NCBI RefSeq assembly: GCF_018398425.1
Contig: NZ_JADPMV010000001.1
Location: 2,728,001-2,792,000, forward strand
DNA from: Pseudomonas lalucatii
GTDB taxonomy: Bacteria > Pseudomonadota > Gammaproteobacteria > Pseudomonadales > Pseudomonadaceae
Length of the DNA stretch: 64,000 bases
Reading direction: 5' to 3'
Numbering within the stretch: the first letter of the stretch is position 1; every line of letters starts with the position of its first letter. A model generated the notes under the pieces. It was not told where the DNA came from. It was given only the letters and a program-made list of their open reading frames with translations, and did not search any database. The translations under genes were made by a program, and so were the position numbers. Shown here in pieces: positions 53,691 through 61,618 of the stretch.

Positions 53691-53823
53691 AGGAATGGCC
53701 GTTAAAGCCTTCGATGCTCTTATGTTGTGTTAAGTGTTGGCAGACATCTGAACCCCGCCCTAGCGGTTCAGACCCTTAAACCCCGAACTTCTCCCTCCCC
53801 ATACGAAGCTCGGGGTTTTTTTT
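53691..53823 (+). ncRNA. ersA: ErsA-like small RNA (Spot 42 position, polA–engB)
   Basis: The segment runs about 133 nt from a transcription start placed just after the −10 to the end of an 8-T run. It contains a hairpin (TCTGAACC with GGTTCAGA, 53747–53772) and a terminator hairpin whose loop, TCCCTCCCC, is C-rich and complementary to ribosome-binding sites. ErsA is about 132 nt and lies between polA and engB in P. aeruginosa, where it controls algC and other envelope genes. Identity is by synteny, length and structure, not by alignment. Confidence 0.75.
53779..53823 (+). terminator. Rho-independent terminator of the ErsA-like sRNA
   Basis: CCCCGAACTTC (53781–53791) pairs with GAAGCTCGGGG (53805–53815) with one mismatch, extended by A/T pairs, followed by TTTTTTTT (53816–53823). 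Confidence 0.88.
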
Positions 53824-53882
53824 GCCCCGCAGAAAAGTGGCGTGGCGCCGTGGCGATGGGCCGCAGCCCTCGCCGTTCGTCC

Positions 53883-57405: not shown

Positions 57406-59381
<1,976 letters not shown>

Positions 59382-59394
59382 CCAGCGTCGGCGC

Positions 59395-60372
59395 TCAGGC
59401 CGCCCTGGGCAGGTAGGGACGCCAGGTCTCGGGGATCTGCTCCAGGCGCGGGTAGTTCAGCGCCTGCAGCTGCAGCTGCGGCAGCAGGAAGGGCGTGTGC
59501 CGCAGCTGCTGCGGCAGGTGGCGCAGTTCCGGCAGCCAGAGGCCGACGTAGGCGGCGTCGGGGTCGTAGGCGCGGGCCTGGCGCAGGGCGTTGAACAGGC
59601 GGCCGCGCTGCGGGTCGCTGGCGACGCCGGCGAGGTAGGCCCAGTTGCCCCAGTTGCTGGCCGGTTCGTAGTCGATCAGGTGTTCCTCGAACCAGGCGGC
59701 GCCGTGCCGCCAGTCCTGCTGCAGGTCGTGGATCAGGTAGCTGGCGACCAGCTGGCGGCCACGGTTGGACAGGTAGCCGGTGGCCGCCAGCTCGCGCATG
59801 TTGGCGTCCACCAGGGGCAGGCCGGTGCGGCCGAGGCACCAGCGCCGGAAACGTCCGTCGAGCTGGCTGGGCGCGCGCCTGGTCGCCTTCACCCCGCCGG
59901 CGCGGAACAGCGCACTGCCGTGGCGCACCAGGGTCCAGCGGAAAAAGTCGCGCCAGAGCAGTCCCAGCCACAGGCTCTGGGTGGCGTCGTTGCGCCCGGC
60001 CTGGGCCTCGTGGCGGCGCAGCTCGGCGGCCACCCGGCGCGGCGACAGGCTGCCATTGGCCAGCCAGGGGGAAAACTTCGACGAATATTCGCTGCCGATC
60101 AGGCGGTCGCGGCCCTCGCCGGAGTGGCGCAGCGCCGGGCTGGCCCACAGGTAGTCGCGCAGGCGCGCCTGCCCCGCGGCCTCGCCGCCGTAGAAGGGGA
60201 AGGCGCTGGCGGGGACGCTGAGCGGCTCGCCCAGGCCCAGCTGGGACAGGCTCGGTAGCGCCTGCCGCAGTGCCTCGGCGCCCTCCGGCAACGGCGGCAG
60301 CCGGCTCGGCGCCGCCTGCGGCTGGAACACCTGCAGGCGCTGTTCGAGCCGTTCGCGGAACTGGCTGTACAA
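59395..60372 (-). CDS. cryptochrome DASH photolyase, C-terminal fragment (split by artefact)
   Basis: About 325 residues contain the FAD-binding helical domain: YSSKFSPWLANGSLSPRRV, LGLLWRDFFRW, LVDANMRELAATGYLSNRGRQ and ASNWGNWAYLAGV, the cryptochrome-DASH signature. It lacks its own natural start; the N-terminal domain is at 60411–60832 in another frame. The break lies at the Nextera adapter insertion, so in the organism the gene is probably intact. Role: photorepair of UV dimers (single-stranded DNA) or light sensing. Confidence 0.85.
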   Translation of the reverse strand: MYSQFRERLEQRLQVFQPQAAPSRLPPLPEGAEALRQALPSLSQLGLGEPLSVPASAFPFYGGEAAGQARLRDYLWASPALRHSGEGRDRLIGSEYSSKFSPWLANGSLSPRRVAAELRRHEAQAGRNDATQSLWLGLLWRDFFRWTLVRHGSALFRAGGVKATRRAPSQLDGRFRRWCLGRTGLPLVDANMRELAATGYLSNRGRQLVASYLIHDLQQDWRHGAAWFEEHLIDYEPASNWGNWAYLAGVASDPQRGRLFNALRQARAYDPDAAYVGLWLPELRHLPQQLRHTPFLLPQLQLQALNYPRLEQIPETWRPYLPRAA

Positions 60373-60428
60373 CGGCGGCAGCCGGCTCGGAGATGTGTAT
60401 AAGAGACAGGTGTACAGCCAGTTCCGCG
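60354..60428. repeat. inverted repeat around the adapter junction
   Basis: CGCGGAACTGGCTGTACA (60354–60371) and TGTACAGCCAGTTCCGCG (60411–60428) are perfect 18-nt inverted arms on either side of the adapter. A 21-bp segment next to the adapter (60370–60390) is an exact copy of 60289–60309. Both point to a fold-back or chimeric read. Confidence 0.9.
60391..60409 (+). other. Tn5 mosaic end / Nextera adapter contamination
   Basis: AGATGTGTATAAGAGACAG is the exact 19-bp hyperactive Tn5 mosaic end used in tagmentation libraries. There is only one copy, with no transposase gene, IS50 sequence or 9-bp target duplication, so it is a library artefact. Translated here it gives the well-known false peptide LIHISEP on the minus strand. 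Confidence 0.97.
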
Positions 60429-60832
60429 CGGCGCAGCAGTCCGCTGCCCTCCAGCTGCTGCAGCGCCACCTCGCCGAGGCTGTGCCGCACCCGTTCGACC
60501 TCGGCCCGCTCGTGCGGGGCGATCTCCTCCAGGGTCAGCACCCGGTCCAGGCCCAGGCGGGCCACCAGCTCGGGAATCACCTGCTCGGCGCGGCCCGGCA
60601 GCACCAGCAGGCGGGAGCCGCGCTGGCGCAGGGCGCCGTCCAGCGCGGCCAGGCTTTCCAGGAGGAAGCGCGCGCGGTGCACGCCCAGGCGGCGGGTGCC
60701 GAATTCGCCCGGCTGCAACTGTGCCGGGTCGAAGACGAACAGCGGCAGCAGGCGCTCGGCCTGCAGGGCGGCCCGCAGGGCCGGGTGATCGTCGAGACGC
60801 AGATCCTGTTTGAACCAGAGCAGGGCGTGCAT
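60411..60832 (-). CDS. cryptochrome DASH photolyase, N-terminal fragment (split by artefact)
   Basis: About 140 residues of the antenna-binding alpha/beta domain: ALLWFKQDLRLDDHPAL at the start (ATG 60832), RARFLLESLAALDGALRQRGSRLLVLPG in the middle, ending at RRAELAV. The frame then runs into adapter sequence. The continuing gene is in a different frame at 60372. The 191-bp gap before marC (60833–61024) contains a small hairpin (60916–60932) and no gene. Confidence 0.85.
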
Positions 60833-61024
60833 GGCGGGCTCCTCGGAAACCTGGCGATGCCCGATGAAATCTACTGCCGGGACCCGCTCACTGTGGCCCA
60901 GGTGGCCTGGCGCTGTCAGCCTTCGGCTGACGGACGACGCCGTTCTATCCGCCGAAGGGCGCTTTACCGACAGACGGACGTGGCGCATATCACTAAACTG
61001 TGGCGATGCGTTGAGGAGTGCAGC

Positions 61025-61618
61025 ATGGACATATTCGGCATCGCCGCGCTGATCTTTCTGGTCACCGACCCCTTTGGCAATATCGCCATCTACATCGCCG
61101 CGCTGAAGAACGTCGCGGCCAAGCGCCGTCTGTGGGTGGCCGGACGCGAGCTGCTGTTCGCCCTGGCCCTGCTGCTGCTGTTCCTCAGCTTCGGCGACAA
61201 GCTGCTCAGCGGCCTGGGCCTGTCGCGCGAGGCCACCGCCATCGCCGGCGCCATCATCCTCTTCGTGGTGGCCATGCGCCTGATCTTCCCCAGCCCCCAG
61301 GGGCTGCTCGGCGACCTGCCGGACGGCGAGCCGATGCTGGTGCCGCTGGCGACCCCGGCGGTGGCCGGGCCCTCGGCCCTGGCGGTGCTGATGACCCTGC
61401 GCAACACCCACGAGGGACCGCTGTGGGAGCTCTACCTGGCGGTGATCCTGGCCTGGGCGGCGACCGCCTGCATCCTCCTGCAGGCCTCGTTCCTGCAGCG
61501 CTTCCTCGGCGCCCGCGGCCTCACCGCGGTGGAGCGGCTGATGGGCATGCTGCTGATCATGCTCAGCGTCGACATGCTGCTGGACAACCTGCAAAGCGTG
61601 CTGCACATCAGCCCATGA
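61025..61618 (+). CDS. MarC/YhgN-family membrane protein
   Basis: The 197-residue protein has six membrane helices and the NAAxxP-like family pattern FLVTDPFGNIAIYIAALKN at the N-terminus and ATPAVAGPSALAVLMTL in the middle. Function is unknown (an old link to multiple antibiotic resistance was withdrawn). ATG overlaps the next start: the MarC stop and the amidase ATG share ATGA. Confidence 0.88.
   Translation: MDIFGIAALIFLVTDPFGNIAIYIAALKNVAAKRRLWVAGRELLFALALLLLFLSFGDKLLSGLGLSREATAIAGAIILFVVAMRLIFPSPQGLLGDLPDGEPMLVPLATPAVAGPSALAVLMTLRNTHEGPLWELYLAVILAWAATACILLQASFLQRFLGARGLTAVERLMGMLLIMLSVDMLLDNLQSVLHISP

Follow-up and report, generated by a model that had tools for sequence, protein, structure and literature searches.

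The 19-bp Tn5 mosaic end is an engineered, hyperactive derivative that replaces the natural ends of Tn5 as the transposase recognition sequence (PMC3046479 and PMC4248319), and the sequences of the oligonucleotides Tn5ME-A and Tn5ME-B are printed in PMC4248319. PMC7111523 treats local assembly errors in general, and our literature search on adapters embedded in assemblies returned nothing on the case described here. Among public genome contigs, at least 119 stretches contain the exact 19-mer. Positions were analysed for 87 matches in 80 of these stretches, the stretch ends being taken as contig ends by eye from some of the lengths listed. In 79 of the 87 matches, the stretch ends no more than 60 nt beyond the outer side of the mosaic end. 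Eight lie further in: four abut runs of N, two belong to a single contig, 150 and 171 nt from its ends, and the remaining two lie 480 nt (L099) and 1,022 nt (L093) in. At least four tag letters precede the mosaic end in 68 of the 87 matches (A tag, 39; B tag, 29); 13 matches are too short and 6 show neither tag. The matches in L093 (3073-3091) and L099 (3882-3900) fall inside public metagenome-assembled contigs and not against N runs, one with three tag letters and the other with a full A tag, and both are candidates for the same kind of assembly error as that proposed below.

Within the genus Pseudomonas, two of the 398 genomes searched contain the 19-mer, the present one included; in the other (L172, G095 C22:93962-93980) a mosaic end with a Nextera A tag lies 21 nt from the stretch end. 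The copy described here shares its 19 nucleotides with the residues in public contigs, most of which also carry an A or a B tag, and differs from them in position: it is internal and gap-free, whereas they sit mostly at contig ends or N runs. It lies inside the 2,890,753-base contig C1, in the window (the whole stretch of 64 kb that was analysed, C1:2728001-2792000), which contains no N. At 53714-53831 on the plus strand, the same window carries the ErsA/Pseudomon-1 small RNA (Rfam RF01719, 130 bits).

Identity and extent of the adapter sequence

The mosaic end, AGATGTGTATAAGAGACAG, is present on the plus strand without a single mismatch. No second copy occurs in the 64-kb window at up to three mismatches, a tolerance at which none of 100 shuffles of the window yielded a match. 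Genome-wide (two contigs, 4,583,128 bases), there is no further copy at up to two mismatches and the inner 14 nt do not recur. Given the dinucleotide make-up of the window, about 6e-7 copies of the 19-mer are expected per genome of this size, and a chance origin is ruled out by the shuffles and by composition. The exactness and singularity of the mosaic end, both asserted in a preliminary description of this DNA, are thus borne out in the window and in the genome.

The match extends beyond the mosaic end. The 26 nt at 60384-60409 are the exact 3′ end of the Illumina Nextera oligonucleotide Tn5ME-B as printed in PMC4248319, seven B-tag bases standing directly 5′ of the mosaic end, whereas identity with Tn5ME-A ending at the same base stops at 19 nt. 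The adapter-derived part is therefore taken to be 60384-60409, for which an identity of this length is expected about 2e-10 times per genome. In all, 26 of the 34 nucleotides of Tn5ME-B are shared, contiguous and exact up to where the mosaic end stops; the outer eight are absent, and a copy of nearby gene DNA stands in their place. The adapter features are as follows:

60391..60409, plus strand: 19-bp Tn5 mosaic end, the engineered transposase recognition sequence; exact, single copy (PMC3046479, PMC4248319)
60384..60409, plus strand: 3′ end of Tn5ME-B, seven tag bases followed by the mosaic end (oligonucleotides printed in PMC4248319)

An adapter origin of 60384-60409 is strongly supported. 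The earlier view of a 19-bp insert holds for the mosaic end itself and falls short in extent, the adapter match covering 26 nt of the printed oligonucleotide and the non-native patch about 49 nt.

The interrupted DASH cryptochrome gene

The adapter interrupts a gene on the minus strand, in which the frame reading ...AVHLSLIHISEPAAAV... at the site was confirmed. The gene is present as two pieces:

60410..60832, minus strand: N-terminal piece, 141 aa, with the DNA_photolyase domain PF00875; positions 3-142 of the TIGR02765 profile
59395..60372, minus strand: C-terminal piece, 325 aa and stop, with the FAD-binding domain PF03441; positions 151-431 of the 431 of TIGR02765

Together the two pieces carry both domains of a DASH cryptochrome. 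Both score on the NCBIfam model TIGR02765, as do the DASH cryptochromes of the genus Pseudomonas: the C-terminal piece reaches 338 bits, above the cut-off of 317.05, and the N-terminal piece alone 88 bits. The nearest database relatives, from P. benzenivorans and Pseudomonas sp., are 85-87% identical to the C-terminal piece. The gene had been called a photolyase, which is right at the level of the superfamily; DASH cryptochrome is the more exact name, because TIGR02765 and the nearest Pseudomonas proteins both match.

The difference from other Pseudomonas DASH cryptochromes lies in the reading frame, which the patch, together with a frame shift, breaks in this assembly. The DNA of the C-terminal piece was matched in 47 of 398 Pseudomonas genomes, its own included (E ≤1e-50), and the window gene was aligned with 29 relatives (30 loci from the genus DNA search minus its own). 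In all 29 the frame is open across the site, with at least 473 residues each, and among the best 120 of 4,419 homologous proteins most are 472-473 aa long. When the split gene, read through as it stands (484 aa), served as query, with candidates limited to 0.55-1.75 times its length, 123 proteins were matched at E ≤1e-30, of which the best 120 were cryptochrome/photolyase relatives; the genome's own chimera was not among these 120. The strings LIHIS, MCIRD and VYKRQ, the latter two of which we take to be adapter readings, occur in none of the 146 proteins compared, the genome's own C-terminal protein (P0001) included. The DASH cryptochrome gene is probably intact in the strain.

A probably non-native patch and its likely formation

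The anomaly is wider than the adapter. Two conserved anchors that are separated by 30 nt in relatives (15 of the 29 were inspected around the site for this spacing) are separated here by 49 nt, a net excess of exactly 19 nt. At the protein level the spacing is constant in 119 of 119 homologues (the best 120 of 4,419 matches minus P0001), with 12 residues from a conserved L to an F/Y anchor inclusive, 10 of them at the patch. The elements in and around the patch are:

60370..60418, no strand: whole patch, judged non-native from the alignment of 29 relatives and the spacing in 119 of 119 proteins
60354..60371, plus strand: left arm of a perfect inverted repeat of 18 nt; alignment with relatives holds to about 60369
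60411..60428, plus strand: right inverted-repeat arm, alignable with relatives over the outer 10 nt (60419-60428)
60289..60309, plus strand: first copy of an exact direct repeat of 21 nt; aligns with relatives and is taken as native
60370..60390, plus strand: second copy of the direct repeat; continues into the adapter

Read along the plus strand, the patch thus consists of the 21-nt copy, the mosaic end and 9 nt, all but the first of which belong to the right inverted arm. The inner part of that arm repeats the left flank in inverted orientation. The two copies of the direct repeat are 81 nt apart, and the last seven letters of the second, GGCTCGG, are at the same time B-tag letters.

Neither repeat exists in any of the 29 relatives, in which only 7-14 of the 21 letters are common between the direct-repeat columns and inverted matches over the same stretch reach at most 5-8 nt. 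The window has no other exact inverted pair of 18 nt whose loop is up to about 42 nt long; equally unique there, apart from a tandem array at 58187-58237, is an exact 21-nt direct pair no more than 100 nt apart. The array itself (plus strand) consists of 8.5 perfect copies of a 6-nt unit that encode an (EP)n run in a diguanylate cyclase (DGCcoil and GGDEF), possibly a length-variable site. When the letters of the flanks were shuffled 1,000 times, the 21-nt direct repeat never arose, and an inverted match of at least 18 nt arose in 16 shuffles, self-overlapping palindromes counted; because of these 16, the inverted repeat is by itself suggestive and not proof. The residues read beside the adapter are foreign to the family, as judged from the aligned proteins: the A and the V after the conserved L are each found in 0 of 119, the L at column 148 in 0 of 119 and the P at column 147 in 1 of 119.

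These observations point to a local error of assembly by which an Illumina Nextera (Tn5ME-B) adapter, left untrimmed, entered the consensus, an interpretation to which we assign a probability of roughly 95%. A fragment of the left flank cut by Tn5 would give short reads that begin with the adapter and run outward on the other strand, and assembly, gap filling or polishing could have taken such an adapter-bearing read in the wrong orientation. One join would have been made through the 10 bases at 60419-60428 common to the read and the right flank, and the other through GGCTCGG, common to the adapter and to the gene 81 bp away; alternatively, the joins may stem from a chimeric library molecule. 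The outcome would be a consensus of 49 nt with a net gain of 19 nt, a frame shift and a split DASH cryptochrome gene. An inverted stub with the adapter on its outside and joins at microhomologies thus argues for overlap-driven joining of adapter-bearing reads, or for a chimeric molecule. Three features run counter to this explanation: the 19-nt excess equals the length of the mosaic end, a match that must then be called a coincidence; assemblers ordinarily work with longer overlaps than the 7-10 nt of these joins; and where the 21-nt copy meets the left flank, no more than a few bases are shared.

The quality of the assembly, which is otherwise good, with two contigs and a completeness of 99.95, also counts against this explanation, since it makes an internal adapter unusual. 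Across the two contigs, three 16S copies are complete and another is present in pieces, which suggests a long-read or hybrid assembly. The rRNA operons include two pairs of nearby, nearly identical copies, at C1:1825681-1832784 (L179) and C2:1355023-1361347 (L178), and the second copy on C2 is broken by a 2,500-base run of N, which may be masked sequence.

The coincidence of the excess with the length of the mosaic end would be accounted for most simply by a clean insertion into native consensus, in which all letters outside the 19 nt belong to the gene, and the gene does regain a normal length once the mosaic end is left out. Such an insertion is nevertheless improbable: seven native bases would have to be identical to the Nextera tag by coincidence (about 2.5e-4 per site), the gene would have to contain on its own two exact repeats, one inverted (18 nt) and one direct (21 nt), that occur in 0 of 29 relatives, and the gene would then encode residues that are absent or nearly absent from these columns among the 119 relatives. 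By sequence comparison the feature is almost certainly an artefact, whether it was pieced together as proposed or cleanly inserted.

Readings in which the strain's own DNA carries the change fare worse. That the whole patch truly belongs to the strain, as a microhomology-templated replacement of 49 nt that contains adapter letters acquired in the laboratory and inactivates the cryptochrome, is very improbable.

Still less credible is a real laboratory insertion, whether of a whole transposon of the mini-Tn5 or EZ-Tn5 style, bearing mosaic ends, or of what is left of one; DNA flanked by mosaic ends does serve transposition (PMC3046479), and the site is inside a gene, but the tag beside the mosaic end is that of the Illumina oligonucleotide in PMC4248319 and the marks of transposition are missing. 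Instead of two inverted ends around a cargo, there is one end in window and genome. There is no 9-bp target duplication, the 9-nt flanks agreeing at 2 of 9 positions when the mosaic end is taken as the insert and at 3 of 9 when the 26 nt are. The genome contains no Tn5-type DNA-binding domain (PF14706, the sole domain searched genome-wide, with the E. coli genome matched as a positive control), which by this domain alone speaks against the transposase gene of a natural Tn5. The lack of target duplication and of transposon genes, on which the preliminary description had relied, is in agreement with these results, and mini-Tn5 and natural Tn5/IS50 are both rejected on the single end, the missing duplication and the missing PF14706 match. 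A natural element, either an IS50/Tn5 end or a functional hairpin with real loss of the cryptochrome, is scarcely credible to the same degree: a perfect 18-nt inverted repeat does surround the site and the frame is broken, but the mosaic end was engineered from the natural ends (PMC3046479 and PMC4248319), is present in none of the 29 related loci, leaves no LIHIS, MCIRD or VYKRQ in the 146 proteins compared (P0001 included), and in public contigs lies no more than 60 nt from a stretch end (79) or against N runs (4) in 83 of the 87 matches examined.

The earlier proposal of an adapter within the assembly is accordingly upheld by the 26-nt match to the Tn5ME-B sequence printed in PMC4248319 and by the lack of a second end, of a target duplication and of PF14706.

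Consequences for annotation and comparison

The split gene has already left a trace in protein databases, where the C-terminal piece stands as a separate truncated protein of 325 aa (P0001). The false database protein that the adapter was expected to create is in this case the truncated entry; protein-search candidates were limited to 0.55-1.75 times the query length, and within these limits no protein bearing LIHISEP was found, a 40-aa query around LSLIHISEP returning no candidate. LIHISEP had also been put forward as a known contaminant peptide, a status that could not be confirmed because the string was not found in the literature searched.

A second annotation is exposed on the other strand. 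A plus-strand frame at 60395-61618 opens within the mosaic end (MYKRQ...) and continues, in the same frame, into a MarC-family gene at 61025, so that a gene caller could start MarC too early; automatic start choice could add about 210 false residues to the protein. Removing the 19-mer alone would probably leave misplaced letters on both sides, since the surrounding consensus appears to be chimeric as well.

The present adapter, internal and gap-free within a near-complete genome, belongs to the rarer kind, 83 of the 87 matches examined elsewhere being near a stretch end or a gap. Its relevance is one of data hygiene and not of biology, and its biological interest is small: in comparative work, the DASH cryptochrome gene of this strain would count as broken.
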